Positions 2,965 through 56,298 of a DNA stretch of 64,000 nt are shown piece after piece. A program made the position numbers and the translations under genes. Every line of letters starts with the position of its first letter. Within the stretch, counting starts at the first letter, position 1. The notes under the pieces are model-generated. The model saw nothing but the letters and a program-made list of their open reading frames with translations. It did no database searches and was not told the origin of the DNA. Source of the stretch: a virus; IMG/VR virus record IMGVR_UViG_3300037010_001227, positions 1-64,000 of that record; one strand, 5' to 3'.

Positions 2965-3054
2965 TTATCTTCCAGTGCATGTTCCTGTGCAGGATGAACT
3001 ACAAGTATTACTACACGTAACATTAAGTATACTAATTAATCCTTTAAGGTATAC
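2965..3054 (-). other. Short Cys-x-x-x coding stretch after the SPASM gene
   Basis: On the minus strand a frame open from 3054 to a TAA at 2965 ends NVTCSNTCSSSCTGTCTGR. It holds four Cys-x-x-x units and the same Gly-Arg-stop ending as the long Cys-rich fibre at 7096. It overlaps the end of the radical SAM/SPASM gene in the +1 frame. No ATG, GTG or TTG lies in this frame; only ATT or ATA follow an AAAGGA Shine-Dalgarno-like site at 3040-3045. It may be translated from a rare start, be reached by +1 frameshifting at the CCT-TAA-A junction as a C-terminal extension of the SPASM enzyme, or be the remnant of a fibre 3' end. The coding resemblance is clear; expression is unknown. Confidence 0.45.
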
Positions 3055-4171
3055 TTAATTTAAGTTCTTTTTCTTTAAGTTTACTTGCAAAATACATCTT
3101 TGCTATTGATATAGCATGAGTCCATCCGCACTGACGTTTTTCATTAACGTATTTTTCCTTATCTTCTACTTCATATATAGCTGCAACACAAGTAGGACAA
3201 GATGCTCTCAGTAAGCAAGTCTGGCACTCTTCTGGCCAAATACGTTTAAAAGTTGTTACCTCATTTAATAGTTTTGTATTTGTAATATTGATAGCATTGT
3301 CACTAAAGGTTCCTAGTTCCATACCAGGTTTATCCATAGTGCAGAATCTATTACAACCATATAATTTACCATCAATTCCTAAACAAGCCATATGAACGCA
3401 AGTTCCACACCACGAATCCTGACTAGAAGACAAAACTGGCATATAAGATTTAATATCTTCTAAAGAATTACCAAATTGAAGTAATTTGACAGTAGATTCT
3501 AGATTATTATTAACAATATAGTCGATAGTTTGTTTTAGTGGTTTAACGATGTCATAGGATAGATCTTTAGTTACAATATCTTCAAAGACTATGTTCCCAG
3601 CAATCTGAGTAAACCCTAATTTAATCAAATTTACCATACCTTCATAATAACTATTAAGATATGTCTCTACTGTGAAGGTTGCTTTTACACTTACATTCTC
3701 TTTGCCTAAAGTCTTAAATAACCAAGGTAAATATTCAATAGCATCTTCATATGAACCAGAACCATCTTTATAGATTCTATATTTATCGTGGTTTTCTTTT
3801 GTTCCATCTACAGAAACCCCAAGAGAAAAATCATTAGTTTTATATTTTTCGATTAAAGCTCTAACTTTAGGATTTTTTAATGTAGTTCCATTTGTAGTTG
3901 TAGATAGGAAAATATGCTTATTAAACTTATGCGACAACTGAAGAGCATATGAAAAAATCTCGTCACAAAGTTCAGGAAACAGAAAAGATTCTCCACCAAT
4001 CAAGTCAATAATAATATGCTTGTTTTCAATAGTTTTGAACTTAATATACATAAATGTCTTGATAGTATCAATGTCATTATGTTTCTGTTCTTTATGCTCA
4101 TAACAATAAGTGCAGTCTAAATTACAGCTTAAATTGGTAAGAATTTGAACTGTGGCTGGAATACCATTCAT
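3044..4171 (-). CDS. Radical SAM/SPASM protein, probable peptide maturase
   Basis: A 375-residue enzyme. The radical SAM cluster motif Cx3Cx2C is C16, C20 and C23, and the SAM-binding GGES is at residues 59-62. The C-terminus is a cysteine-rich SPASM-type region (C255, C258, C263, C273, C277, then C316, C319, C325, C328, C348) expected to hold auxiliary [4Fe-4S] clusters. SPASM enzymes typically modify ribosomal peptides (sactipeptide and ranthipeptide thioethers) or sulfatases. Its ATG overlaps the stop of the preceding radical SAM gene by one base, so the two are coupled. The nearest Cys-rich substrate candidates are the fibre at 7096-8802 and the short stretch at 2965-3054. All canonical residues are present; the substrate is inferred from context. 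Confidence 0.85.
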   Translation of the reverse strand: MNGIPATVQILTNLSCNLDCTYCYEHKEQKHNDIDTIKTFMYIKFKTIENKHIIIDLIGGESFLFPELCDEIFSYALQLSHKFNKHIFLSTTTNGTTLKNPKVRALIEKYKTNDFSLGVSVDGTKENHDKYRIYKDGSGSYEDAIEYLPWLFKTLGKENVSVKATFTVETYLNSYYEGMVNLIKLGFTQIAGNIVFEDIVTKDLSYDIVKPLKQTIDYIVNNNLESTVKLLQFGNSLEDIKSYMPVLSSSQDSWCGTCVHMACLGIDGKLYGCNRFCTMDKPGMELGTFSDNAINITNTKLLNEVTTFKRIWPEECQTCLLRASCPTCVAAIYEVEDKEKYVNEKRQCGWTHAISIAKMYFASKLKEKELKLSIP

Positions 4172-5589
4172 TATAACAGTCCCTTATTAAATCGTTTACA
4201 AATATCTAAATAATAATCAAAATCATTTCTGGTGGCAAATAAGTTTTCTTTACCCTCTGCAGCAAATACAATCGTATTTTTATATGTTGGATATAGCTTT
4301 TTCAATTCCATTTCAATTGCTATGACAGCAGTAATATCAAACGTTGCCTTGGTAACTTGTAAATCAATTTGAAAGGGGCACATAAAAATTCTAAATAGTT
4401 CTAAAAAGTCATTTGAAAAGTGCTCATTTGGAGAAATTGATTTTTTAATCTTTTTAGTTGTACTAGTAAGAAGTTCTTTTACTAAATCAAGATTTCTACT
4501 TTGAATAACTGCATTTTTAACTGATTTTGTATCACCATTTAAAGTATCAAAATTAACAATTAACGAAATACCATGATAATTTGTAAAAGCAACCAAAGAT
4601 TTAGTAATAGAATACCCATCAATAATTAAAGATAACTTAGCCATCGGTTGCTGAATTTTAACTGTCTGAATAATGCTTAAAAAATCATGTTCATCAATGA
4701 AATTATCCGAACAATCAAATACGATTTCTTTATATTTGGTTGCCATAGTTGCATTTAGTAATTTAGGATTAGATGCTATTAAGACATATTCTAAAACTAA
4801 TTTTGAGGGTTCCATAGGGTCTCTTCTGAAAGTGTCTACAAATTTTAAAAACTCTGTGTATTGTTCAAACGACATTGCAGTTCTGTATCCTACGCATCCT
4901 GGAAAACCTGGAACTGGTTCACATAGTTTCTCAACAGAGCCATCAGCATTTATAATCATATCTGAATAATCACATTGTTTTGTTGTATGTGTAAATGTCA
5001 ACCATTTAGTGCTTGTAGAATCTATAGTTTTTAAAGCTATTAATTCCTTTTTAATCCAATCTAATGAAATATCGTCAAATTTTTGAGTTACATCTAAAGA
5101 CAATCCAATGTTTGTATTAAATAGGATTCGCAATTGATGTAAGGTGTTACAAAGGTTTTTAGTATTTGGCAATACTATTGTAGACAAGGACAAACTGTTA
5201 ATAGTCTTTAATAACTGGGGCCATTCTTGGTTATCAGTTATAATTTTAGCATCTTCTACAGATTTCTCTCCAGTAATTCCTTGGAGACTAATAATGATAT
5301 GAATATTGTTGGCATTAATCCATGAAATAATCTCTGGTGTTAATAGTCTTCCATTAGTATTTATCGTCTTTTTGGAGTCTAGACTTAAGGAAGATATTAC
5401 CTTTTTTAACTTATCGAAGTCTAAAAAAGGTTCGCCACCAGTTATAACAGCATGTTCATAATATCCAAAAGTACTAATAGACTTTAAAATGGCTTCAATA
5501 TTCTCGCCTTTTTTAGAATCTTCTGTTTTTAAACAGAAAGAACACTGCATATTACAGTGTTCATTCAATTGTATTGTTAATATTGACAT
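4171..5589 (-). CDS. Radical SAM protein with a degenerate second barrel
   Basis: A 472-residue protein. The N-terminal half has the radical SAM motif C12, C16, C19, followed by TGGEP (about 50-54) and a TNGRLL strand typical of this fold. From about residue 255 the order of elements repeats without the cysteine motif: compare GITGEKSVEDA in the first half with TLNGDTKSVKNAV in the second. This suggests an internal duplication in which the second barrel lost its cluster. The same elements occur in the broken gene at 6374-7089 (VLQGEKSVLNAI), so the two genes are related. It is coupled by TAATG overlaps to both neighbours. It probably works with the SPASM enzyme on the same substrate; that is inference. 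Confidence 0.8.
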   Translation of the reverse strand: MSILTIQLNEHCNMQCSFCLKTEDSKKGENIEAILKSISTFGYYEHAVITGGEPFLDFDKLKKVISSLSLDSKKTINTNGRLLTPEIISWINANNIHIIISLQGITGEKSVEDAKIITDNQEWPQLLKTINSLSLSTIVLPNTKNLCNTLHQLRILFNTNIGLSLDVTQKFDDISLDWIKKELIALKTIDSTSTKWLTFTHTTKQCDYSDMIINADGSVEKLCEPVPGFPGCVGYRTAMSFEQYTEFLKFVDTFRRDPMEPSKLVLEYVLIASNPKLLNATMATKYKEIVFDCSDNFIDEHDFLSIIQTVKIQQPMAKLSLIIDGYSITKSLVAFTNYHGISLIVNFDTLNGDTKSVKNAVIQSRNLDLVKELLTSTTKKIKKSISPNEHFSNDFLELFRIFMCPFQIDLQVTKATFDITAVIAIEMELKKLYPTYKNTIVFAAEGKENLFATRNDFDYYLDICKRFNKGLL

Positions 5590-6263
5590 TATTTACCTGA
5601 AAGAATTTCAGCTCTCTTAGCAAAATAATCGGCCTGTAAAGCTCGTATTCTGGCTTTTTCAGCAATAATAGTAGCTGGAGTATTAGAGTTATTAATATTT
5701 CCTACTGTTAACATAGTTTTTAAATCTTCACCATATTTGTTGCAGATATTTACATCATTAAGAACTAATAGCTGAATGATTTCTGTTAAATAATCAACTT
5801 GAGCTTCTAATGTGGCAATAGACGAATAAGGATCTATTTTATAGGTAATAGTTTCAAATTTTATATCTTGTTTTTTACACTTAAAATCAAACTCTGGTAT
5901 TGTCTTAAGATAGGTAAGAAAATTAGAACATGAGTCAAAACCATGAGGTCCACAATCTAATGTTTCTGCCGTGCCACAATAAATAAACACAAAGATATCA
6001 GAACCTACTCGTAAAATAGTAGCAATATGCATATCATTTAGAGTTTTATCACTCCAAGGGAATGTACGATAGGTTTTATTTGACTCATTATAATGTAAAA
6101 AGACGCCATCAAAAGATTCTTTTAGTGGAGAGCAGTCAAAAGTATATGGTAACGTAGTTTTATAGTGATTAATCACTATAGTAGTATCATTTACTATACT
6201 TACAGAAATTACTCCAGTGTCTGTTAAATAATCAGAATTGGTAACTTTAACTAGTTTTATCAT
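5589..6263 (-). CDS. Unknown protein inside the radical SAM operon
   Basis: A 224-residue protein with no family recognised. The first two thirds look beta-rich with scattered Cys (FDCSPL, FIYCGTAETLDCGPHGFDSC). The last third is helical and Ala-rich (AEKARIRALQADYFAKRAEI) and may form a coiled coil. Its stop overlaps the ATG of the two-barrel radical SAM gene by one base. Being locked between radical SAM genes, it is a candidate partner such as a substrate-binding, leader-recognition or fibre-chaperone protein. No RiPP recognition element could be identified by eye, so the role stays open. Confidence 0.65.
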   Translation of the reverse strand: MIKLVKVTNSDYLTDTGVISVSIVNDTTIVINHYKTTLPYTFDCSPLKESFDGVFLHYNESNKTYRTFPWSDKTLNDMHIATILRVGSDIFVFIYCGTAETLDCGPHGFDSCSNFLTYLKTIPEFDFKCKKQDIKFETITYKIDPYSSIATLEAQVDYLTEIIQLLVLNDVNICNKYGEDLKTMLTVGNINNSNTPATIIAEKARIRALQADYFAKRAEILSGK

Positions 6264-6342
6264 TATCTTCTTCCAAGTGAATAATTTGCATTTCCTGTTT
6301 AAAATTGTCTATTGTATCTATAAAATAATTAAGCGTTTCCAT
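6247..6342 (-). CDS. Possible small ORF, 31 aa
   Basis: A short frame from ATG 6342 to TAA 6247 encodes a charged helical peptide (METLNYFIDTIDNFKQEM...). It overlaps the start of the 224-residue gene by 17 bases. No clear ribosome binding site is visible. It occupies the gap after the broken radical SAM gene and may be a small coupled gene or chance. Confidence 0.25.
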   Translation of the reverse strand: METLNYFIDTIDNFKQEMQIIHLEEDNDKTS

Positions 6343-6373
6343 ACTATCAAAACAAACCGCCTCACACTAAATC

Positions 6374-7089
6374 TCAACAACCATTCCAGCCCTTGACAGG
6401 TCGGTAAGGATAAGGTCTGAAAAGTAAATTAAAACATCGTTGATTACATTCTTTGTGGGCAAGTAAAAACTTTACTGACTTAAATACAGAATAAGGTACT
6501 AGTTTTTGTAATTCTGCTTTTATAAATTCTACATCAGCGGGTTTAAATTTTTTCGTGGAATCTAATGTAAGCTGAAAGGTGGCAGATGGAAACAATAAAG
6601 ACAAATCTTTAAAAGATTCTGTAAAAGTTATAGAAGCAAATACTACTTTCATAAGTTCTACTTGATCTAAATGCCGTATATGATCTATCAGAGAAAGATT
6701 TTGTGTGAGATTAATAGCATTTAATACGGATTTTTCACCTTGTAAAACATCTCTAAAACCTATGGAAAATTTTATTTTATTGTAATTAAAATAATTTACT
6801 AGTTCATTTGTTAGTAAACTACCATTTGTATACACAGACAACATCATAGTTTTTGAATGTTCTCTTACATATGTTATAGCGGGAATAAAAATTCTAAGTC
6901 TTGTAAAGGTTCTCCGCCAGTAAACGATATTACTGTATATAGATGATGTCCAAAGATGTCTTTAAACTTTTCTAACCTATCACTAGTAGATAACCTGTCT
7001 TTTCGCTCTAAAAATTCGCGTCTAGAACAAAAAGAACAGTTCATATTACATAAAAACCTAGTAAAAACAAAAAGATCGTAAACTTTCAT
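6374..7089 (-). pseudogene. Radical SAM gene broken by a 1-base frameshift
   Basis: Two frames together make one radical SAM protein. The first (7089-6874) has CNMNCSFC (Cx3Cx2C at C14, C18, C21) and TGGEP, then ends early at EFLFPL-stop. The second frame (ATG at 6847) carries SVYTNGSLL and VLQGEKSVLNAI. The second frame is open upstream of its ATG and reads IPAITYVREHSKTMML, the missing link. Adding one T to the five-T run in the codons for Glu-Phe-Leu would restore a single frame of about 235 residues. The product would still be half the length of the related 472-residue protein. It is a recent frameshift, a homopolymer sequencing error, or a slippage-controlled gene. It starts 7 bases after the Cys-rich fibre gene. 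Confidence 0.75.
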
Positions 7090-7095
7090 AAGTTA

Positions 7096-8802
7096 TTAGC
7101 GACCTTTGCAGCCACTAGCACAATCTGCTGTGCAAGATGCAGAACAAGTTCCTGTGCAAGTTCCTTCACAACCACCTGTGCAAGTTCCTGTACAACCACC
7201 TGTGCAAGTTCCTGTGCAAGTACTAAAACAAGTTCCTGTGCAAGATGTCTGACAACCACCAGTACAGGTTGAAGAACAAGTTCCTTCACAAGTTCCTGTG
7301 CAATTTGCTGTGCAATGTCCAGTGCAAGAATTTAAACATCCTCCAGTACAAGATGTAATACAACTACCTACACAAGTATTATTACAACTACCTTTACATG
7401 TAGATAAACAAGACCAAGAACAACTACCACCACAAGTATAGAAATCGGGCGGTTGACCACCTAAAGTAACAGCATTAACATTTGTTATTTGAGAACCATC
7501 ACCAGCAAATGAGGGGGCAATGAATCTAGTGGAAGAAGCCAAGGAAACAGGATGTGTTTCATCAGCAGCTCTTCTTGATATAATAGAATCTACATCAGAC
7601 GTTCCAGAACCAAAGCTGATTTCACCACTGTATGAGATAGAAATTCTACTAAAAATATCACCGGGAACATTAGTAACCAAGGCGTCTTTGTGTAAAGGAC
7701 CTACAAAGTGGACACTAGCTGGATCTGTAACAATTAATGTGCCAGCTACTAAATTATCACCGTCTCTATTAATTTTACGATTTAACTGACTCTGAACAGG
7801 ACTTGTTACACCAGATAAAAGATTCAACTCGTCTAAATTGGTATTCATTGTAACAACTACTTTGTTAGAGTCTATACCTAAAACTCTATTAGCTGTTAAT
7901 TTATTTAACAGTAAATCAGATGTATTACTTAAAGCAATAGAGCCTGCTGTATGAGTAACTGAACCAGTCAACTGTGCAGAAGCTAAAGGAGCTTTTAAAT
8001 CTAATTGGCCTTGAATAGGAGATGTTACATTGTGAACATAAGAAAGTTCAGTAGATGTGGTTGAAGAGCTTGTTAATTTTTTATTGTTGTCTAAATAAAC
8101 AGCAGTTGAAGCAGTTAATGAAGAAACAATAAAATTATTAGATAGTGTAAGGTTGTTTGCAGCTGTTAAACCAGTTAAGTGAGCATCCAGTAATGGAGCC
8201 TTTAAGTCTAATTGACTCTGTAAAGTTATTCCAGTTGACAAATCAGATAATTGATTGATTTGATTTGTTGATACTGCGGCGCACATAATTTTGGAGCCGG
8301 TTGGATCCGAAATTAAAACCTTGTTTGTATCCAAGCCGGTTAGAGTAAATGCACCGTTACCAATAGTAACGGCAGCAGTAAAGTTTGCTGGTCCTTCTAC
8401 AGTAACATCCCCAAGAAAATCTACAGGCTTAGTAAAGTCTACGTTGTTATTAAAATATGATAGTCCAGTGAACGTAGTATTACCACTAAAAATATTATTA
8501 CCACTGAAGTTATTAGGAGCAGCAGACAGAGCAAAGTCTGACATTGTAGTGCCGTCATGACTAAAATAGAGTCTCCAAGCATTTACATTAGTATCCCAAT
8601 CACATTTAATATGTGGATTATAATTTACACCGACATTGTTTGATACCTGGAACACCAAATACTTTGGACTGTATCCTACTCCGTGTCCATTTTGTTCTCC
8701 ATCGGGGGCTCCATTAACAGCTGTTAACGGAGTTCCAATAACAAAGTCATTGTCAGGTGTTGTTGTGTATCTAAATTGACTTAATCTTAACTCACCACTC
8801 AT
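7096..8802 (-). CDS. Tail fibre with (Cys-x-x-x)28 C-terminus
   Basis: A 568-residue fibre protein. Residues about 1-90 form an N-terminal domain that may attach to the virion. The middle has fibre repeats of the type QSQLDLKAPL...LTG (near residues 198, 270 and 340), typical of trimeric phage fibres. From C457 to the end every fourth residue is Cys, with Gly, Ser and Thr in most other places (CGGS CSWS CLST ... CTGT CSAS CTAD CASG CKGR): 28 units without a break. Only two other Cys precede it (CDWD, MCAA). It is followed 7 bases later by radical SAM genes. The tail may form thioether, disulfide or metal cross-links at the fibre tip. The fibre assignment is firm; the modification is inferred. 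Confidence 0.85.
   Translation of the reverse strand: MSGELRLSQFRYTTTPDNDFVIGTPLTAVNGAPDGEQNGHGVGYSPKYLVFQVSNNVGVNYNPHIKCDWDTNVNAWRLYFSHDGTTMSDFALSAAPNNFSGNNIFSGNTTFTGLSYFNNNVDFTKPVDFLGDVTVEGPANFTAAVTIGNGAFTLTGLDTNKVLISDPTGSKIMCAAVSTNQINQLSDLSTGITLQSQLDLKAPLLDAHLTGLTAANNLTLSNNFIVSSLTASTAVYLDNNKKLTSSSTTSTELSYVHNVTSPIQGQLDLKAPLASAQLTGSVTHTAGSIALSNTSDLLLNKLTANRVLGIDSNKVVVTMNTNLDELNLLSGVTSPVQSQLNRKINRDGDNLVAGTLIVTDPASVHFVGPLHKDALVTNVPGDIFSRISISYSGEISFGSGTSDVDSIISRRAADETHPVSLASSTRFIAPSFAGDGSQITNVNAVTLGGQPPDFYTCGGSCSWSCLSTCKGSCNNTCVGSCITSCTGGCLNSCTGHCTANCTGTCEGTCSSTCTGGCQTSCTGTCFSTCTGTCTGGCTGTCTGGCEGTCTGTCSASCTADCASGCKGR
7099..7434 (-). repeat. Cys-x-x-x tandem repeat coding region, 28 units
   Basis: Twelve-base coding units, one Cys codon per unit, repeated 28 times with no change of register. 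Common forms are TGT/TGC-ACA-GGA/GGT-ACT (CTGT, CTGG). The units vary in sequence, more at the 5' end, so selection on the spacing of Cys rather than simple recent slippage maintains the pattern. The short stretch at 2965-3015 has four more such units. Confidence 0.95.
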
Positions 8803-8834
8803 CGTATACCCTATAGTAAAACTTAATTGTAATC

Positions 8835-9602
8835 TTACGCGATAAAGAACTGTTGGCTTGAAGCATGGTTTGCCAGCTCTTCTCGTAAATTGGTTATCTC
8901 ATCTTTGGCTTGTGACAGCAGTTCCTGGGCATTTAAAGTTTGAGTCTCTCCAGTAGCACCAGCTATAGTTGAATATTTACCACGAACTAATCCTAGCATG
9001 TTCTTTGTAATAGCAAGGGCCATACGCTTTATCCAATAGGTTCCCCATTGATTAGATGTGGATATGGCTCCATCTTTAGACATAACGCCAAAGGCATTTT
9101 TAGAATACTCGATAATAACTGTCTGAGTGGCCTTAGGATAAGGAAATAGATAGAGTGTATTGTCAATAACTTTAAAAGTGATATCAAGACCTAAAGCTCG
9201 GTTTCTATTTTGTATATACTCATAGAATACAGCAAGATTAGCAGCACCATGAATAAAATTACCATAGCCAGCTCCTTGTAATCCTCCAAAACCACCACCG
9301 CCTCCCATAGCGAAACTAAAGATGTCTGTTGTTCCAGCCATACCGGCCATTATTTCGAAGGGCATAGCATAACAAACACTAGAGACAGTTCCTACTTCAG
9401 GAGGTAATGGAACTTCATTGTGCCCCTGAATAGCCATCGGTTGGTAGTAAGCTCTTTCTACTGCTCCAGTGGCAAGGTATTCATCCACGGCGGTGTTAAT
9501 AGCAGTATGAAGTTGAGCTTCATCTAACTCAACAGCAACAGTGGGCCAACCTAAATTAGTCAGGATGTAATTTTGAATGTCTTCTCGTTTGATTAAGCCC
9601 AT
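8835..9602 (-). CDS. Neck protein, T4 gp13-like
   Basis: A 255-residue protein matching the T4 gp13 layout. The N-terminus (IQNYILTNLGWPTVAVELDE, then a helix of AINTAVDEYL type) parallels gp13's opening helix and 'GAPIINVELTPDQI'. The middle is Gly/Ala/Met-rich (GMAGTTDIFSFAMGGGGGFG). The C-terminus has a helix WIKRMALAITKNMLGLVRGK followed by a charged coil (AKDEITNLREEL), as in gp13. gp13 and gp14 form the neck that seals the filled head. It lies between the gp6-like wedge gene and the fibre gene. Assigned by pattern; no alignment was run. Confidence 0.75.
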   Translation of the reverse strand: MGLIKREDIQNYILTNLGWPTVAVELDEAQLHTAINTAVDEYLATGAVERAYYQPMAIQGHNEVPLPPEVGTVSSVCYAMPFEIMAGMAGTTDIFSFAMGGGGGFGGLQGAGYGNFIHGAANLAVFYEYIQNRNRALGLDITFKVIDNTLYLFPYPKATQTVIIEYSKNAFGVMSKDGAISTSNQWGTYWIKRMALAITKNMLGLVRGKYSTIAGATGETQTLNAQELLSQAKDEITNLREELANHASSQQFFIA

Positions 9603-9610
9603 TGGTAACC

Positions 9611-12040
9611 TTACTTAGCTATGTTAATTTGTAGATTTGTTGTGTTTAATACAATAATTTCGTATGGTTTAATAGGATACTCAGCGCCGAAGAGAATATC
9701 ATACTCAGAAGATAGTTTAGGAAAGTCTCTTTGAGAGTCTTTGTATCCTGGAATATCTTTAAGTTGCTTATATGTTTTAACTCCAGTTGCTAATACTGTT
9801 CCATCAGGTAAGAATGCGGAAGCCAATCCACCAACATAAATGTCAAAAGATTCTACGCCTGAAATAGCAGATAATGACTTAATGAAATCAAAGCTATTTA
9901 AACCCATACCCATTTCAAAATTATCCATTTTGAAATAGTTTGTTACAGAAGTGTAAATATCATTTCTGATTTGGCCTGATAGGTAACCAGCTTTTACTTT
10001 AACGTCTAGTCTGATATCTAAACTTCTCATTAAACCGTCAGCAACTTCAATATCAACACCAATACACTTATATTTATTTAAATAGTTACGTAATTGATAT
10101 TTTTCAGTAAGTGTTAAAGGCTGAACGGAGGTTTTATTAACTGAACTTAAGCAATACAGTCTAATAATGCTTCCATCTGAATCAGATTTAACAAGAGCAG
10201 CTGCAACTTTATAATTACTATTGAATTTTTTAGCCAGTGTAATATAATCTTCAGAACCTACTGCTCTATCTTGAGCAGCAAAGAATCGTGTTACTAATTC
10301 CTTAGAAGATTCAATAGATTCACCTTTTGACGAAGGTGCTGAAGAATATTCATTGTTTAATGAAACAATTACACCACCAATCCGAATTGACTTCTCTGAT
10401 TCGTTAGGTTTAATAATATAACCGTAACTACCAGTATTATTTACTCGATAGATAACTTTAATAGCTGCACCCTTGTCTGGGATTGCACCAAAATGACCGT
10501 CACCAAATCTAATAAAAGCATTAAAATTACCATCCCAAGTGACTTCATATACAGATTCTGCTTTATAGTAGGTATCAATATCTGCTGACAACCCAAACGC
10601 GATAACATTGTCAGATAATACCTTACCAATAGCAATCTTGTATGAAGGATTATTTTTTAAGAACTTAATAGAAGGATATTTAGTTGGATCCGCTAACTCA
10701 ATTTGAGTATCTGACACTAATTGTGGTTGTTTATATTCACCACCAATATCCTTATATTCTAATAGATAAAGAATGTCTCCAGCTGACCAAGCAATTGGTT
10801 CACCATAAATATTTGTAACTTCTGTTTCTAATGTAGTAGATGTAGCTGAATCAGTATTATCTGCAACTTTACCATAAACATATGCAGAGTGATATAATAA
10901 AAGATCAACATAATCATCACCAGCTACGGTAGAACTGGATAGATTAGAAATAATACCAATTCTATATGGAACATTTAGATTAACAAAGTCTTCATACTTG
11001 GCGATAATAGCTTCGTTATCATAATTGATAGCTAACATCATACCAACTTGAAGTAGATTGTTTTGTTTTAATCTAAAAGTCTCTTCAGATAGTTTAAAAG
11101 GAGCCAACAGGTAAGGAGTGTTTAAATTTTTTGTTGCTCCTACTTCAGTAGCAGACTTAAAGCCTGCTAATGCTAAGTAAGAAAGTTCGCCCCAAGTATT
11201 ATAAGCATACTTTCCAGGAATATTAATAGTAGTATCTTGGACTTGAACAATTATTGATGAGTTTAATACAGGTCCAGAACTTAAAGTAATGATTTGATTT
11301 GCAGTTCCATTAGATCGAAAATCTTCAACTAATGTCGTTCCACTTAATGCGAAACAAGTATATGTATTGAGTTCTTTTTCAATAGATTCTGCATCAGGAT
11401 CGTCAACTCTCACATAAGGTGGTAAAATAACATCACCTAAGTAATCAGGCTCAAAAATACCGTCTGTTAGTATAGCTGGGAATAATTCAAAGGTTTCTGA
11501 ACCAAAGGTAAGTTTTCTTCGGGCTAAACTAGAAGAAAAAATAATTTCTGAGGCATCCTCAATGTCTCTCGCTGCTGATGAATTAGCCAAAGATCTGTTT
11601 CTGGTAACTTTAAGAAGCAACACACCTTGTTGAGGACGGGAAGGTTTATATTTAAACATGTTTAAGAGTCTGTAAGTAGCGTATGCAGACTGTGAAGTGT
11701 CTAAAAATAGTTCGTTAACCATGGAATCAGTGTGATATGAAAGCATTTGACCCATGTAGGCCATCATGTTCATCATCATGCCTGAAGTGTTTGAATCTGC
11801 AAAGTCTCTTACAGAATACCCTAATTTAGCAGAATTGGCCTTAAGTAGGTTTAGTAATTGCAGTTTAATAGAACTGAAGTCTAAGTTTGTATATTCAAGA
11901 GGCGGCAGCTGAGGCTTAAATCTAAGTAGATCAATATCCAACGGAGTAACAGCGTCCGGTATATTTGGGTCTACTATAATATTTCCAGTAGAAGATACTA
12001 TATCTGTTATACTATTTGGCGTATTGTAAATTAATGTCAT
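9611..12040 (-). CDS. Baseplate wedge protein, gp6/J-like
   Basis: An 809-residue protein. Near residues 50-130 it has the helical segment typical of T4 gp6 and P2 gpJ-type wedge proteins (NLLKANSAKLGYSVRDF, YHTDSMVNELFLDTSQ, ATYRLLNMFKYKPSRPQQG). The C-terminal third has the conserved J-domain features: RFFAAQDRAVGSEDYITLAK, then a cysteine-containing YKCIGVDIEVADG region and alternating strands. The wedge ring surrounds the hub and links the fibres to sheath contraction. It is longer than T4 gp6 (660 aa). Nine bases separate it from the gp13-like gene, within a compact operon. Confidence 0.85.
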   Translation of the reverse strand: MTLIYNTPNSITDIVSSTGNIIVDPNIPDAVTPLDIDLLRFKPQLPPLEYTNLDFSSIKLQLLNLLKANSAKLGYSVRDFADSNTSGMMMNMMAYMGQMLSYHTDSMVNELFLDTSQSAYATYRLLNMFKYKPSRPQQGVLLLKVTRNRSLANSSAARDIEDASEIIFSSSLARRKLTFGSETFELFPAILTDGIFEPDYLGDVILPPYVRVDDPDAESIEKELNTYTCFALSGTTLVEDFRSNGTANQIITLSSGPVLNSSIIVQVQDTTINIPGKYAYNTWGELSYLALAGFKSATEVGATKNLNTPYLLAPFKLSEETFRLKQNNLLQVGMMLAINYDNEAIIAKYEDFVNLNVPYRIGIISNLSSSTVAGDDYVDLLLYHSAYVYGKVADNTDSATSTTLETEVTNIYGEPIAWSAGDILYLLEYKDIGGEYKQPQLVSDTQIELADPTKYPSIKFLKNNPSYKIAIGKVLSDNVIAFGLSADIDTYYKAESVYEVTWDGNFNAFIRFGDGHFGAIPDKGAAIKVIYRVNNTGSYGYIIKPNESEKSIRIGGVIVSLNNEYSSAPSSKGESIESSKELVTRFFAAQDRAVGSEDYITLAKKFNSNYKVAAALVKSDSDGSIIRLYCLSSVNKTSVQPLTLTEKYQLRNYLNKYKCIGVDIEVADGLMRSLDIRLDVKVKAGYLSGQIRNDIYTSVTNYFKMDNFEMGMGLNSFDFIKSLSAISGVESFDIYVGGLASAFLPDGTVLATGVKTYKQLKDIPGYKDSQRDFPKLSSEYDILFGAEYPIKPYEIIVLNTTNLQINIAK

Positions 12041-19583: not shown

Positions 19584-22430
19584 TTAGTAGAACAGTAATT
19601 GTCTGAAACATTCAGAGTTTGAATGTCTATTAGTCCAAAGATACTTTAGGCCATCAATAGTAGAATAGATTTCTGTTCTATTACCAATAATAATGGTACC
19701 TGTGTTATATGGAGTTATACCAGCACCATGAATTGTATTCGTAATACAATCTAAATAATACCAACGTAATGTAGCATCTTTTTCAAAGTAAAGTCTATCA
19801 CCATAATCATACGCGTATTGAGAACCAGCTGATAAGACTTCAATCTGTGGAGTAACTGGAATTAAATTCCATTGATCTGTTGTGATATCTAATTTATCAA
19901 ATCCTAAAGCACCACCGCCGCGAGCACTAACCATATATTTGCCACGGAAAGTTTGATTGATAGTACCTAAACCAAATATCCATTTTAAAGAAATACCAGT
20001 ACCGCGAACTGGCGGTTGAAGAATTACATATGATGAAACTGATGCTACTGGAGCAGTAGCAGCACCAAAAGTTAACGTATTATTGGTATTTGATGTAATA
20101 GTTAATTCTTGAGCCTGGCCAGTGCCTCCTAATATTCTAACTTTACGTCCAGCATAAGCATTAACTACCCAGCCTGGGGTAATAGTTCCACCAGAAATTG
20201 AAGATGTTGCAGCCATCGATAAAGTATAAGTTCCTTGACCACCTAATGATCCATTTGGCATAGTAGATGTTAACTGATTAACAATGACGGCACCAGCAGG
20301 AATACTAGCATGTGTTACCGACATTCCAGGTGATAAAATACCTGATGGAGTAGTAGAAACGGTTAATACAAAACCTCCAGCATTCATAGATCCAGTAAAT
20401 GTACCAGTTTTTGTAGTATCTTGTAATGTAGTTGTAGATTGTGTACCAGTAGCAATACCATGATCTAAAGTTCCAATTGTATTTCTAGGCGTAATAACAT
20501 AACGAGAAACTCCATTAACAGGAGCGGTTCCAGTTGTTACAAACGTTAATGTATCAGCAGTATTTGAAGCAATTTGGAAAACTTGACCAGTAGCTAGTCC
20601 AGACGCGGCAGTAACAGCGGTTGTGGTCATATAACACATATAGCCAGCCCACTGATTTGATGTCCATGATTTAGTTTTGTCACATAATGTTGATGTAGAT
20701 TGAGAGCCAGCTAATGTATCTGCCGAAGGTGTTCCAGCCATTGTATATGTAAAGGTTGTAGTAGAAGGAACCGAAACAATAGTAGCAGTAGTATTAAAAT
20801 TAGCATCCGTCATACCTTTAACGGTAATTGACATACCTACTTTAAGACAATGTGGATTAACGGTTGTAATTGTTGCTGTATTAGTAGAATGTGTTGCTGA
20901 AGCGATTGCAATTGGTTTAGTTTCTCCAAATATTACGCAAGCATTTCTCGCTACACCAGAATCAGCCAATCTCCCATAAGTCGCAATATCGTCGTCATAA
21001 TTATGAATTAACGTAGCCGCCTGTCCACCTAACATTATATAGATTTTGTCGCCATCTCCTTGGAAGTTATAAACAGATGTGGAATCTGGAGTTACTAACC
21101 ATGGTTTAGCTAACGTAATAGTTGTAGCAGTATTACTTAGAATTGGCATTACCTGACCCGCGCCAGTTCCGCTTGTGATTCTAATAGCGTAATTTTTAAA
21201 TCTATTAATTGGCCAATTCTTAGTATTATCAACTAAAGTTGTAGTTGTAGCACTTGTAGCTGTTCCAGAATCAAATCCATCAATTAAATACTTTGAAGTT
21301 GCATCTGGTACTGTTCCACTAGTAGCCCACGTTAAAGTATTAGCTGTATTACTAACAATTTGTCTTAATTGACCATCACCTGTTCCTCCAAATAAACGAA
21401 CATAATAACCGGCCCATTGATTAGTATTCCAAGATTTTGTGGTATCAATTAAAGTAGTTGTAGTACCACCTGTAGCTACTCCACGTTCCCAAATAGACGA
21501 ATTTTCTGTACAAGATTCAATTGTTCCATCGGTTCCAACAGCAGATATATTTAACGTGTTAGCCGTTCTAATATACCAAGTATCTGTTGCAACATCATAA
21601 ACTTGTAATGTATAAAATGGCGTTGCAGCAGCGGAAGATGCTAAAATAACCATTCCAGATTCAATACGGAAAATAGATGTAATATCTGGATTAACAGTCC
21701 AGTTTGTATCGACTGTAACAGTTGAAGATTCAATAGAATAGATAGATTGAGATCCAGCCGTAGCAAGAATAGCTGGTGATGTAATCATTGGATTACACCA
21801 GTTATTTTGCGCAGAAATACCAGAATCGCCTAAATATAAAACAGTGGCAGAATTATAAAGAATACGTCTTACTTGACCAACGCCAGTACCAAAACTAATT
21901 CTAACTTGATATCCAGCCCATTGATTAACTGTCCAAGCTTTTGTTGTATCGGTAATTGTAATAGCGCCCAATACGTTATTAACTGCTGTTGGAACACCCG
22001 TATCCATTACAACGGGTTCAGATACATCTGTAATAATTCTGCGCTGTCCCTTTCCCGTTCCGCCGACAATACAAATATCAAAGTTCTTTAAGGCTTGTCC
22101 AGAATAAGCTGGAATATTAATAGAGTTATTAGTAGTTCCGGGAAGGCATAATCCTTCTACCCCTAACGCACCATTAAATTTCATTGCTGACCATGTTGCA
22201 GGAGCAATAGGTGGAGAAGATAACTGAAGATATGTATCAGTCCATGTGTCATATTTCCAGAAAGACGTGGCTGCGATTAGATAATATATATATCTTCCAT
22301 GTTGAGGATGGAAGTTTGAGTTGTCTGCACTACAAGAGCTTGAACTAGTTGAAGAAGACACTGGAGCAAATCTTGCCCATTCCCAAACGGGAATGTCAAC
22401 TTGTTTTCTTAGAGTATTCTGAATTGCCAT
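19584..22430 (-). CDS. Fibre/adhesin with WAGYxVRI repeats
   Basis: A 948-residue virion protein with at least seven repeats of about 75-110 residues. Each contains T-T-T-L-x-D-x-T-K-x-W-x-x-N-x-W-A-G-Y-x-V-R-I, GTGxGQxRxI and SNTAxTLT (for example NQWAGYYVRLFGGTGDGQLR). The unit is rich in Thr and Asn and predicted to be beta-structured. The N-terminal 100 residues are different, with a Ser/Cys-rich SSSTSSSSCSAD segment. An array like this suits a long host-contact fibre or decoration protein. A 10-bp-stem terminator follows it. Its ATG overlaps the stop of an HNH endonuclease gene by one base. Confidence 0.8.
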   Translation of the reverse strand: MAIQNTLRKQVDIPVWEWARFAPVSSSTSSSSCSADNSNFHPQHGRYIYYLIAATSFWKYDTWTDTYLQLSSPPIAPATWSAMKFNGALGVEGLCLPGTTNNSINIPAYSGQALKNFDICIVGGTGKGQRRIITDVSEPVVMDTGVPTAVNNVLGAITITDTTKAWTVNQWAGYQVRISFGTGVGQVRRILYNSATVLYLGDSGISAQNNWCNPMITSPAILATAGSQSIYSIESSTVTVDTNWTVNPDITSIFRIESGMVILASSAAATPFYTLQVYDVATDTWYIRTANTLNISAVGTDGTIESCTENSSIWERGVATGGTTTTLIDTTKSWNTNQWAGYYVRLFGGTGDGQLRQIVSNTANTLTWATSGTVPDATSKYLIDGFDSGTATSATTTTLVDNTKNWPINRFKNYAIRITSGTGAGQVMPILSNTATTITLAKPWLVTPDSTSVYNFQGDGDKIYIMLGGQAATLIHNYDDDIATYGRLADSGVARNACVIFGETKPIAIASATHSTNTATITTVNPHCLKVGMSITVKGMTDANFNTTATIVSVPSTTTFTYTMAGTPSADTLAGSQSTSTLCDKTKSWTSNQWAGYMCYMTTTAVTAASGLATGQVFQIASNTADTLTFVTTGTAPVNGVSRYVITPRNTIGTLDHGIATGTQSTTTLQDTTKTGTFTGSMNAGGFVLTVSTTPSGILSPGMSVTHASIPAGAVIVNQLTSTMPNGSLGGQGTYTLSMAATSSISGGTITPGWVVNAYAGRKVRILGGTGQAQELTITSNTNNTLTFGAATAPVASVSSYVILQPPVRGTGISLKWIFGLGTINQTFRGKYMVSARGGGALGFDKLDITTDQWNLIPVTPQIEVLSAGSQYAYDYGDRLYFEKDATLRWYYLDCITNTIHGAGITPYNTGTIIIGNRTEIYSTIDGLKYLWTNRHSNSECFRQLLFY

Positions 22431-23080
22431 TAAATTAACTCCTTCACTTTACTATGTCTTTTATGATGGCATATAAAACACAGAGTTATTCCATTGTCTA
22501 CAGCATATCTATATTCTGGATAATCCTTCCATTTTAATTTATGATGTGCATTTAATTTACCGCCCTTAACCTTACAATCTTGACACGTATAATCGTCTCT
22601 AATATATACGGCAGTTCTCCAATTTTTATAATCTAAAGAAAGAGTTGCATTAGAACGAACTTTATCCGAGGTATAATTTCCATTTTTATAATTCCAATGG
22701 CGTTTCCCTTCTTTTCTTAACTGTGCTGCATGTTCTTTTTTCTTTTCTGATATTTTCTTTTTTGCTTCTTCGGTATGATGATGTCCGTCAAATCTATATT
22801 GAAGATTTCTTAAATGTTCAGCTTTTTTCTTATTAGAAATTTCTTTTTCTTCAAGGGTTAAATTTTTCTTTTTTTGATTTTCTGAATTTACTTTGTTTAT
22901 ATGTTCTTTATTTTTTAAGTAATAATCTGCTTTATATCTTTTTAATTGTTCTTTATTATTAATGTAATCTCTTTGTTTACCTCTAAAACACACTTTACAT
23001 TCAGAACGATATTTTTGACTATCTTGTCTAAAATGAAATTCTTCTTTTAATTTATCTTCTTTACATATTTTACATATCAT
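22430..23080 (-). CDS. HNH homing endonuclease, apparently intact
   Basis: A 216-residue protein. The N-terminus is a four-Cys zinc motif (MICKICKEDKLKEEFHFR... CKVC) followed by a basic helical linker with a NUMOD3-like TEEAKKKISEKKKEH. The C-terminal HNH domain (164-209) has C166/C169, the H179-H180 pair, N196 and C201/C204-H205...H209, so all catalytic and zinc residues are present. Such free-standing enzymes nick or cut uninvaded DNA and spread their gene. It lies between two virion genes and overlaps the fibre gene's ATG by one base, as is common for phage homing endonucleases. Confidence 0.9.
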   Translation of the reverse strand: MICKICKEDKLKEEFHFRQDSQKYRSECKVCFRGKQRDYINNKEQLKRYKADYYLKNKEHINKVNSENQKKKNLTLEEKEISNKKKAEHLRNLQYRFDGHHHTEEAKKKISEKKKEHAAQLRKEGKRHWNYKNGNYTSDKVRSNATLSLDYKNWRTAVYIRDDYTCQDCKVKGGKLNAHHKLKWKDYPEYRYAVDNGITLCFICHHKRHSKVKELI

Positions 23081-27503: not shown

Positions 27504-28568
27504 TTATTTATTTACTTCTAAGCTTAATTTTATACTGATCGGACTATCTAAACCCATTACATCTGAAAAATCATCCGCAGAGAAAGAGTCTACAACACCT
27601 GGGATAGAAGGCCCTCTTCTACTCGTTCCAGTTTTAACATATTGACTCATATTAGGTCTTACCATTCCTGGCACTTGGTTTTGAATAACAGGAGTTTCTG
27701 GATTTACTCCCATATTTTGTTGTGTCTGTTTTACTGTGTCAGAGAGATTTGGAGAGGATGGTTGCCAAAAAGTAGGAGTATATGAATTTAACACATCCAT
27801 TGGATCAGCTATATCAGTAAAATCATCAGCTACATGGTCTACTTCAACTTCTACTAAACCATCATTAGTTTTTGAAGTTTCTTTAGTTTCAGGCTCTTCA
27901 ACTACTTCTGGTTTTGTCTCTTCAACTTCATTTGAAATGTCTGGTTGTGTATCTTTGTGTAGTTCAACTTCAACCTCAGTTGGATCAAAGTATTCATCAT
28001 GACCTTTAGGATTTTTATTCTTATTTAAAGGACCGGAAGAAAAAATTTGATTTAAATCATCCATAAAACTATAAATATCATCTACTTTTTCTTCAGCAAT
28101 TCTATTTGATTGCTGTTGTTGAGCAGACTTTTGAGCAGCTTGTGTTTGCTGATTTGTTTGTTGCTGATTATTTTTATTTTGGTCTGGATTACTACTTTCA
28201 GCGGCTTGTCTAGCTAAAATAGCTAACTGAGTTAGTTTTTTAACATCTTCTGGAGATTTTACTTCAACATTCTCTGGGTTATCAGAAACAATAATTGGTT
28301 TACCTGTTTTAGGATCGACCATTATTGTGCTACCGTCAGGAGTAGTAGCTATTTGAGTAGCGCCATCTTGTTGAGCAATATCTGTTTGTGTAATTGGCTT
28401 ATTGTTAGAAAAAGTTCCTAAATTTGTTCCTTGAGGAAACAAATTGGCCATTTGTTCAGAACTTAAACTTTCAATAAAAGATTTACGTTCTTTATTAACC
28501 TCAGATTGAAGTTCTTTCATCTTATCTGAGGTTAACTTAATCTGACTAAAAAGAGAACGTTTTATCAT
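27504..28568 (-). CDS. Low-complexity acidic/Gln-rich protein, 354 aa
   Basis: A 354-residue protein with little sign of a fold. The N-terminus is a charged helix (KMKELQSEVNKERKSFIESL). The centre is Gln-rich (QQQTNQQTQAAQKSAQQQQS). The next segment is Glu/Val-rich (VEETKPEVVEEPETKETS), and the C-terminus is Pro/Ser-rich. It might be a disordered scaffold, chaperone or linker of the tail. Its ATG overlaps the TAA of the repeat-protein gene by one base, so the two disordered proteins are probably co-translated. Function unknown. Confidence 0.65.
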   Translation of the reverse strand: MIKRSLFSQIKLTSDKMKELQSEVNKERKSFIESLSSEQMANLFPQGTNLGTFSNNKPITQTDIAQQDGATQIATTPDGSTIMVDPKTGKPIIVSDNPENVEVKSPEDVKKLTQLAILARQAAESSNPDQNKNNQQQTNQQTQAAQKSAQQQQSNRIAEEKVDDIYSFMDDLNQIFSSGPLNKNKNPKGHDEYFDPTEVEVELHKDTQPDISNEVEETKPEVVEEPETKETSKTNDGLVEVEVDHVADDFTDIADPMDVLNSYTPTFWQPSSPNLSDTVKQTQQNMGVNPETPVIQNQVPGMVRPNMSQYVKTGTSRRGPSIPGVVDSFSADDFSDVMGLDSPISIKLSLEVNK

Positions 28569-29176
28569 TATTTTTCTTTCTTTCTACTACTTTTTGTTAC
28601 TGGTTCAACAACTGCCTGTTCAATAGCTGGTTCAACAACTGCTGGTTCAACAACTGCTGGTTCAACAACTGCTGGTTCAACAACTGCTGGTTCAACAACT
28701 GCTGGTTCAACAACTGCTGGTTCAACAACTGCTGGTTCAACAACTGCTGGTTCAACAACTGCCTGTTCAATAGCTGGTTCAACAACTGCTGGTTCAACAA
28801 CTGCTGGTTCAACAACTGCCTGTTCAATAGCTGGTTCAACAACTGCCTGTTCAATAGCTGGTTCAACAACTGCCTGTTCAACAACTGCCTGTTCAATAGC
28901 TGGTTCAACAACTGCCTGTTCAACAACTGCAGCTGGAACATTCACTAATTCTGGAATAGGTTCAGAAATTGGTTGATTAGGATTTATTAAAATACCAGTT
29001 CCATATTCTAGTTTTACTAAATGATGAGGAACATACTGATCTAAACCAGGATATTCTAATTCTTTAATCGTGTCAGGATATATAAGAATATCCTCTGCTG
29101 TTTTGAAATCACTTGAGGGAAGGATTACATGAACAACTTTAGTAGAAATATTTTTGTAAATATGTTGCTTTATCAT
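28568..29176 (-). CDS. Virion-type protein with VVEPA/IEQA tandem repeats
   Basis: A 202-residue protein. Residues 1-80 form a compact domain with strands ([40 protein letters not shown]). From about residue 83 to 188 there are about 23 units of [10 protein letters not shown] or IEQA, then a basic tail (TKSSRKKEK). Pro-containing alternating hydrophobic/acidic repeats usually make an extended rod or linker. The repeat is also nearly identical in DNA and so liable to length change. Close to the gp7-like wedge and the zinc ribbon; role unknown. Confidence 0.7.
28603..28935 (-). repeat. 15/12-bp tandem repeat array coding VVEPA/IEQA
   Basis: Near-identical units ttcaacaactgctgg (15 bp) alternate with a unit reading ttcaatagctgg or ttcaacaactgcctg. 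The longest uniform run is at about 28621-28757. The units are in frame with the gene at 28568-29176, and changes in copy number would keep the frame when 15-bp units are gained or lost. Confidence 0.95.
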
Positions 29177-55953: not shown

Positions 55954-56298
55954 TTATTTAATTTCGAAGTTTCTACAAACATTTACTATATTAATTCTTG
56001 GAATTCTGGTAACACCGTTTCGCATAACTGGGTCTTTAATACAAAGTTTTTCTGTAAGTATTTTAGCAAGAGCTGTATCCAAACGTTTGTATGCTCCGTC
56101 ATGTGCTTTTAAATAACACTGTCTACATAATATTATTAAATTTTTAGGATTAAAAATATTAGAATCAGTACTGTTTTTATTACCTGGTATTGTATGGTGC
56201 ATGGTTAGCTCGGTTAAAGTATTACACAATTGACAACAGTAAGAATCTCTCTTTAGAGGTTTAATTTTAAAAGTGCATCTTTTGAATGCTTGTAGCAT
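55954..56298 (-). CDS. HNH endonuclease fragment, C-terminal domain
   Basis: A 114-residue protein with a HNH core: RDSYCCQLCN (zinc pair), TMHHTIPG (HH), NPKNLIILC (Asn) and CRQCYLKAHDG. In the last motif the usual CHxxxH reads CYxxxH, so one conserved His is replaced by Tyr. The N-terminal zinc domain that such genes normally carry is found separately just upstream (56354-56515) in another frame. The gene is therefore probably a broken homing endonuclease inserted between the portal and core genes. Any remaining nuclease activity is doubtful. Confidence 0.7.
   Translation of the reverse strand: MLQAFKRCTFKIKPLKRDSYCCQLCNTLTELTMHHTIPGNKNSTDSNIFNPKNLIILCRQCYLKAHDGAYKRLDTALAKILTEKLCIKDPVMRNGVTRIPRINIVNVCRNFEIK

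Follow-up and report, generated by a model that had tools for sequence, protein, structure and literature searches.

A cysteine-repeat array on a phage fibre-like protein adjoins radical SAM genes, and the pairing recurs among unrelated phages

INTRODUCTION

How would a phage use a fibre-like protein that ends in an unbroken run of Cys-x-x-x units, and what holds the cysteines in place? The question is raised by a 64 000-nt stretch of DNA (positions 1–64 000 of the IMG/VR virus record IMGVR_UViG_3300037010_001227), hereafter the window, to which coordinates refer unless another locus is named. A preliminary description made from the sequence considered metal binding, disulfides or thioethers as possible roles for the cysteines. 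The key to the locus is the group of radical SAM (rSAM) genes that lies beside the array.

RESULTS

The cysteine array

Translation of the open frame at 7096–8802 (minus strand) gives a protein of 568 aa in which residues 457–568 (7099–7434) form 28 consecutive C-x-x-x units, confirming the exact register noted in the preliminary description. The array contains 28 cysteines while the remaining 456 residues have two. There are 20 distinct units at the peptide level and 23 at the DNA level. Position x1 is varied (Thr in 12 of 28 units, together with Leu, Lys, Glu, Val, Ile, Gln, Phe and others), x2 is Gly in 16 of 28, and x3 is Thr, Ser or Gly in 24 of 28. Asp and Glu are scarce in the Cys arrays, and the residues relevant to trypsin in the window array are limited to two Lys and one Arg among 112. 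The last unit is CKGR; the KGR ending had been remarked upon and is correct here, but relatives end in SGP, SGR, SRG, DMG and others.

The array starts with CGGSCSWSC (7408–7434, minus strand), a candidate recognition or priming site common to the arrays of SPN3US-type phages and of loci L016 and L018 described below. In the window and most SPN3US-type proteins the start has the form C-[GN]-G-[ST]-C-S-W-x-C, and it is CSGCSWTC or CANGCSWTC in L016 and L018. The whole array is a candidate substrate of rSAM enzymes, and clears the 20-bit cutoff of the NCBIfam target model TIGR04114 ('Cys-rich repeat') by a borderline margin at 20.7 bits. It is unique in the virus record of 213,189 bp, where 24 of the 25 reverse-strand matches to a five-Cys pattern fall inside it, and the other at 49424. 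A comparison of the array sequence with solved structures found none that is similar.

At positions 1 and 2 of the array Cys codons none of 56 sites varies, while at the same positions in the non-Cys residues 40% of the sites are off-consensus. If the Cys sites drifted like the others the probability of this would be ∼4e-13, or 4e-10 if the least variable position is taken as the measure. The third base does vary, with 18 TGT and 10 TGC codons, and this together with the fixed first two positions indicates that the array is not simply a fresh expansion. Selection of the spacing, beyond a mere fresh expansion, had been read from the variation at the DNA level. That stands for the strongly constrained cysteines, but a portion of the array is a recent duplication, with a 24-bp unit at 7151–7219 present in 2.9 copies with 93% matches (Tandem Repeats Finder).

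The carrier protein and the phage backbone

The 568-aa carrier is tail-fibre-like by its open frame, PHROG matches and gene position. It weakly matches the virion structural protein family phrog_16122 (1.1e-6), and residues 443–531, spanning the junction and part of the array, match phrog_6085 (2.7e-14). Family matches place the gene after predicted head–tail adaptor and baseplate wedge genes. From its fibre-like sequence and this position we infer that the carrier is a virion tail fibre protein. The body upstream of the array contains repeated stretches of the form TSPIQxQLDLKAPL (identified by eye), and close relatives of it were sought in viral contigs and none found. A fibre linker, LGGQPPDFYT (7435–7464, minus strand), directly precedes the array in the translation. 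LGGQPPxYY was considered as an array-specific leader and dropped. It has 47 matches in viral contigs, 18 of them in frames of at least 100 aa, and none of the 18 leads into a Cys array. It is therefore a general phage fibre motif, and the CxGxCSWxC start was kept instead.

The terminase in the window has its closest counterparts in T4-like phages (it matches 2563 of 50,697 phage records, with ∼32% identity over 70% of the protein in the best case), and the baseplate also resembles that of T4-like phages. Elsewhere in the window, 28568–29176 encodes a protein of 202 aa composed largely of EPAVV or EQAVV repeats (Tandem Repeats Finder, 28600–28930), and frames resembling free-standing GIY-YIG or HNH endonucleases were seen by eye among the structural genes at 1173–1682, 22430–23080 and 55954–56298.

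The radical SAM genes beside the array

The first rSAM frame begins 7 bp past the end of the array gene on the same strand, and the three intact genes downstream overlap one another by single bases. The frame nearest to the array (6874–7089, minus strand) encodes an N-terminal piece of an rSAM enzyme with the motif CNMNCSFC (PF04055, 4.4e-8), similar to the 472-aa enzyme described below, and the rest of the gene lies in another frame (6374–6847, minus strand; BLASTP to the 472-aa enzyme, E 6e-13). In this record the gene is thus split by a frameshift (6374–7089), which may be biological or a sequencing error. It is followed by a possible partner protein of 224 aa (5589–6263, minus strand), with no match in NCBIfam, Pfam or PHROGs, and by the 472-aa rSAM enzyme (4171–5589, minus strand; CNMQCSFC; PF04055, 3.5e-9). 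The C-terminal half of the latter resembles a second, degenerate copy, and aligns to the product of the split gene (33% over 118 aa). A search of viral contigs for close relatives of the 472-aa enzyme found none. The last gene (3044–4171, minus strand) encodes an rSAM/SPASM enzyme of 375 aa with the motif CNLDCTYC, the predicted maturase of the array. All three of these motifs have the CxxxCxxC form of the rSAM superfamily, and the PF04055 scores are 41.0 bits for this gene, 37.5 for 4171–5589 and 33.9 for the fragment at 6874–7089, compared with a gathering cutoff of 29.5 bits. Away from the array, three more rSAM domains occur in the same virus record (G000), at 146685–146999, 148179–148643 and 170775–171071.

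The best NCBIfam model for the 375-aa enzyme is TIGR04115, 'radical SAM peptide maturase, CXXX-repeat target family', at 157.1 bits, below its cutoff of 350. PapB is second at 150.8 bits, below its cutoff of 340, and phrog_1802 is matched at 2.7e-47. TIGR04115 also has a criterion of context, an adjacent Cys-x-x-x target, and here that target is the array at 7099–7434 on the same strand. Conserved C-terminal cysteines of SPASM maturases serve auxiliary clusters. In the C-terminal half of the 375-aa enzyme C255, C263, C273, C316, C319, C325, C328 and C348 are invariant in all six aligned enzymes, and by these predicted cluster ligands the enzyme fits the SPASM-domain RiPP maturases. A PDB profile search with the window enzyme and four phage homologues placed CteB (5wgg) first (E 3.1e-21), and an AlphaFold2 model of the enzyme (mean pLDDT 71.5) gave CteB (5why) as the top structure match (E 6.7e-17, TM 0.73), with the epimerase EpeE also among the fold matches. 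The N-terminus of the enzyme lies close to the rSAM motif, and family scans and models recognised no RRE domain in the enzyme or in the modelled partner described below.

Arrays beside homologues of the 375-aa enzyme

A tblastn search of named phages with the 375-aa enzyme returned 103 records at E 1e-5, including many SPN3US-type jumbo phages of Salmonella, Erwinia and Cronobacter. In SPN3US, EarlPhillipIV, phiEaH2 and CR5, two small proteins that end in Cys arrays are encoded just upstream of two tandem rSAM genes. In SPN3US these are SPN3US_0166 and an unannotated frame, and next upstream are SPN3US_0167 (putative structural) and then SPN3US_0168, which the available passages of its description class as a baseplate/fibre tail protein (PMC5105663). 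The unannotated frame of this Salmonella phage lies at about 9100–9490 of locus L002, adjoining SPN3US_0166.

In viral contigs a pattern-based search with the 375-aa enzyme alone gave no homologues, and an alignment search gave 66 loci. All 15 homologues with 33–43% identity over nearly their full length (L016–L030) are preceded on their own strand by an array. Twelve are SPN3US-type, L016 and L017 represent a single match and L018 stands alone, making three lineages besides the window. L016 is lambda-like, and its array protein of 255 aa comes after a homologue of tail fibre J with one or two small frames between. L018 is P2-like, with baseplate, tail and sheath families, and its array carrier of 401 aa matches tail fibre families.

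A permissive scan (Cys spacing 2–5) marks seven of the other 51, weaker, loci. Four look real (L031, L033, L046 and L047), and have Cys-rich designs different from that of the window. The apparent arrays of L049, L050 and L060 are short reverse-strand frames and were treated as chance, and one of nine pattern matches (L007) was set aside as having no array in the translated scan. L047 encodes a phage protein of 381 aa with three long CDCNYCTC-type arrays (8772–9917), after rSAM genes at 5520–6614 and 6829–7671; the same is found in L046. In L031 a protein (9113–9832) encoded just past two rSAM genes has a stretch of the form CNSDCxCNxxCxCHNDCxC immediately before a Peptidase_S74 chaperone domain, and L033 looks alike by eye. 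In a set of seven further loci, L364 has a 31-Cys array adjoining an rSAM gene, L365 has 8 Cys and L370 a doubtful 6. The related rSAM genes of L366, L367, CP220 (L368) and nt-1 (L369) have no Cys array in the stretch read, which counts against the maturation of arrays proposed below. In bacterial genome contigs a permissive Cys run, doubtful in several cases, accompanies 11 of the best 80 rSAM relatives.

Constraint and spacing of the cysteines

Related phages with freely substituted cysteines had been named in the preliminary description as what would speak against its reading of the array, and the SPN3US-type relatives are not of this kind. In two sets of 12 of their proteins the aligned Cys columns are invariant (0 differences in 1386 and in 1309 sequence pairs), in an alignment that was itself guided by Cys and with L005_7 and L028_21 falling in the wrong paralog set. 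At the remaining array columns 38% and 37% of pairs differ, and identical cysteines use different codons in 39% and 42%. The cysteines of the array thus appear to be under strong constraint.

The spacing is less regular. The SPN3US-type arrays mix intervals of three and four, with 0 to 6 intervals of three per protein, and within one subgroup an 8-residue gap is fixed in one of the paralogs, where Ala replaces a Cys. The proposal that an exact period of four is selected, so placing the cysteines on one face of a rod or on the axis of a trimer, finds no support in this comparison; the mixed spacing and the 8-residue gap make such a placement unlikely.

Radical SAM genes beside arrays

The association was also examined in the reverse direction, starting from the array. 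The degenerate pattern C[ST]GxC[ST]GxC[ST]GxC matched at least 120 stretches of viral contigs, with 119 new loci among the matches listed. An array was required to have at least nine Cys and at least eight distinct units in a frame of at least 120 aa, a rule fixed before the rSAM search with the list of arrays known. This divided the matches listed into 13 positives, 11 low-complexity 'shadow' loci, used as controls and not as positives, and 95 without an array. The 50 controls, from 106 possible, comprised the 11 shadow loci and 39 of the 95 others, and are mostly shorter than the positive records.

Among the matches listed, 12 of 13 array-positive records have an rSAM domain (E 1e-3), compared with 1 of 50 controls (Fisher P ∼6e-11, or 3e-11 after merging records of the same proteins). 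The rSAM domain lies 403–1306 bp from the array in all 12 positives, and in the one control with a match 4.5 kb separate it from the shadow array. Because the control records are mostly shorter, these distances carry more weight than the counts. The one positive without an rSAM domain (G011) is a 20-kb fragment with an array identical, as printed, to that of G010. There is some overlap among the 13, with G003 and G009, and likewise G010 and G011, having the same proteins, and G013 being of SPN3US type and already in the forward search. Some rSAM frames of the array-bearing G008, G010 and G005 (the records of L152, L163 and L117) are interrupted by TAG, with five in a single frame in both G008 and G010, a sign that these phages may read TAG as an amino acid.

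A single enzyme clade on different backbones

In a tree of 28 rSAM/SPASM enzymes, those of the window, L016, L018 and seven SPN3US-type phages form one clade with support of 100/100. The occurrence of one enzyme clade on four different phage backbones indicates transfer of the cassette of array and enzymes among unrelated tailed phages. Four enzymes from bacterial contigs join the phage maturase clade (97/98). Their loci include L244 of Anaerolineae, where the neighbour is a peptide comprising a leader and CXXX units, and L238 of Lachnospiraceae, with a 26-Cys array.

L016, L018 and the SPN3US-type phages also have in common a partner protein of 240–300 aa, PHROG 8030 (hhalign probability 98.5, E 1.9e-15). 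No such partner is recognisable in the window, where the 224-aa protein was ruled out as a member by hhalign (probability 0.2%). A model of PHROG 8030, built in the hope of finding an RRE, was of moderate confidence (mean pLDDT 63) and matched nothing solved. The sole significant viral match to the family is an Erwinia phage protein of 295 aa with 28% identity, which probably belongs to PHROG 8030 itself.

DISCUSSION

Comparison with known systems

The systems of the bacterial CXXX-repeat peptides (TIGR04114/TIGR04115) resemble the window in having Cys-x-x-x repeats that adjoin an rSAM/SPASM maturase. They differ in the substrate, which from the NCBIfam family description of TIGR04115 we take to be a small peptide (as exemplified by L244), whereas in the window it forms the terminus of a long fibre-like protein encoded in a tail module; moreover the score of the 375-aa enzyme is less than half the TIGR04115 cutoff. 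CteB (the SCIFF maturase) is the nearest solved structure both by sequence and by model, and PapB (freyrasin) ranks second among the families matched by the window enzyme and first for the enzymes of L016 and L018. CteB links Cys32 of its peptide to a Thr by a thioether (PMC8326336), and the substrates of PapB have the Cys-x3 spacing of the array (PMC9413430). PapB however requires an Asp or Glu acceptor, and the arrays are mostly without these; the substrates of CteB and PapB are leader-bearing peptides, unlike the window fibre. The rSAM enzyme QhpD is described in the same source as CteB as introducing thioethers into quinohemoprotein amine dehydrogenase, a working protein and not a natural-product peptide (PMC8326336). 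Its target is an enzyme subunit rather than a virion fibre, and with 89 bits against the quinohemoprotein maturation model (cutoff 453) the window enzyme is not closest to it.

Among phages, the SPN3US type (Seoulvirus, Erskinevirus and Derbicusvirus) resembles the window in the CxGxCSWxC start and in having its arrays beside rSAM genes, two in each phage, one of them 38–39% identical to the window enzyme. It differs in encoding two separate small array proteins of ∼111–142 aa in each phage, with spacings of 3 and 4, and its backbone is phiKZ-like according to the passages available (PMC5105663), compared with the T4-like terminase and baseplate of the window. Text passages from papers on mass spectrometry of the SPN3US virion make no mention of the array product gp166 or its neighbours gp163–gp165. 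The rSAM genes of Campylobacter phages have been explained, in the part of the report available, as possible helpers of host metabolism (PMC2853527). Among the open-access titles and abstracts surveyed, we found no paper on rSAM-modified virion proteins.

A possible maturation of the fibre end

The array serves, on a reading that we regard as fairly likely, as the substrate within a virion fibre protein that undergoes RiPP-like maturation in the infected cell. The fibre would be made with its C-terminal run of Cys-x-x-x units, to which the rSAM/SPASM enzyme and one or two helper rSAM enzymes would bind, probably at the CGGSCSWSC start. The bound enzymes could then work along the array before the virion is assembled. 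By analogy with CteB and PapB each Cys sulfur would most likely be joined to a carbon of Thr, Ser or Gly in the same or the next unit, so that thioether rings would follow one another like the rungs of a ladder. At its distal end the fibre would then have a short rod or tip braced by covalent bonds, in the position occupied in other fibres by a receptor-binding or chaperone tip. What the enzymes need may be a spacing of 3 to 4 and small residues at x2 and x3, rather than a geometric rule of a helix, and the mixed spacing of the arrays would fit the tolerance of PapB for Cys-to-acceptor distances of 0 to 6 residues given in the passages available (PMC9413430). The fibre-like nature of the carriers, with L016 following tail fibre J, L018 matching tail fibre families and the Cys-rich stretch of L031 preceding Peptidase_S74, is consistent with this maturation. 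Against it stand the split in the rSAM gene closest to the array, the unrecognisable partner in the window, the missed cutoffs of TIGR04115 and PapB, the silence of the SPN3US virion passages on gp166 and gp163–gp165, and the related rSAM genes of L366, L367, CP220 and nt-1 with no array in the stretch read.

Since rSAM maturases adjoin the array, thioethers are favoured among the three possibilities offered by the preliminary description, and disulfides and metal less so. The bond made in the array is, by analogy, probably a thioether. The rSAM superfamily is chemically diverse, and the enzymes could instead epimerise the x residues, form carbon–carbon cross-links or oxidise Cys or Ser; the presence of EpeE among the fold matches and of second, smaller rSAM enzymes with no assigned chemistry are compatible with this. 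We consider it unlikely, because the nearest enzymes, CteB and PapB, make thioethers in the passages available (PMC8326336, PMC9413430) and the sole absolutely constrained residue of the arrays is Cys, the thioether donor. Still less probable is that the array escapes the rSAM enzymes altogether, with those genes serving some other process. Cysteine-rich repeats can bind metal or form disulfides, and could act in the fibre in either way. rSAM genes are moreover common in some phages that have no array in the stretch read, and the available part of one report gives 11 and 12 of them in the Campylobacter phages CP220 and CPt10 (PMC2853527). This is difficult to reconcile with the joint occurrence of array and rSAM genes in 12 of 13 records versus 1 of 50 controls among the matches listed, or with one maturase clade spread across unrelated phages.

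The fibre might alternatively be a mere carrier, with the array cleaved from it and set free as a RiPP that the phage makes to act on the host or rival phages. The small leader-plus-array precursors of bacterial CXXX-type peptides (L244) and the small size of the SPN3US-type carriers (∼111–142 aa) would suit such a role. In the window, L016 and L018, however, the arrays are fused to longer fibre-like proteins in tail modules, and a non-systematic look recognised no peptidase gene beside the array, so that we think release improbable. A functionless array that arose by neutral expansion of repeats is scarcely credible; the recent 24-bp duplication speaks for it in part, but against it are the invariance of the Cys codons at positions 1 and 2 (0 of 56 versus 40% elsewhere) and the retention of every Cys by relatives despite silent changes of codon.

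Implications for phage structural proteins

The finding widens from a single fibre to a recurrent cassette of array and rSAM genes on phage fibre-type proteins. It is possible, and we put it forward tentatively, that a covalently cross-linked Cys ladder, built by rSAM enzymes and supplied by one mobile cassette, completes the virion fibre tip in phages of four or more unrelated tail types, that a wider range of phages use other Cys-rich arrays in the same way, and that RiPP chemistry is a general way to build adhesive or penetrating tips. Given the tight pairing of rSAM genes with Cys arrays on structural-type proteins, the simplest task for these enzymes would be the building of the virion. 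If this is true, phage structural proteins would contain thioether cross-links made by enzymes. Standard virion proteomics, with its reliance on tryptic sites and on free or alkylated Cys, could have missed the array products. Many of the genes annotated as 'hypothetical' or 'radical SAM' in jumbo phages such as SPN3US would then gain a testable function.
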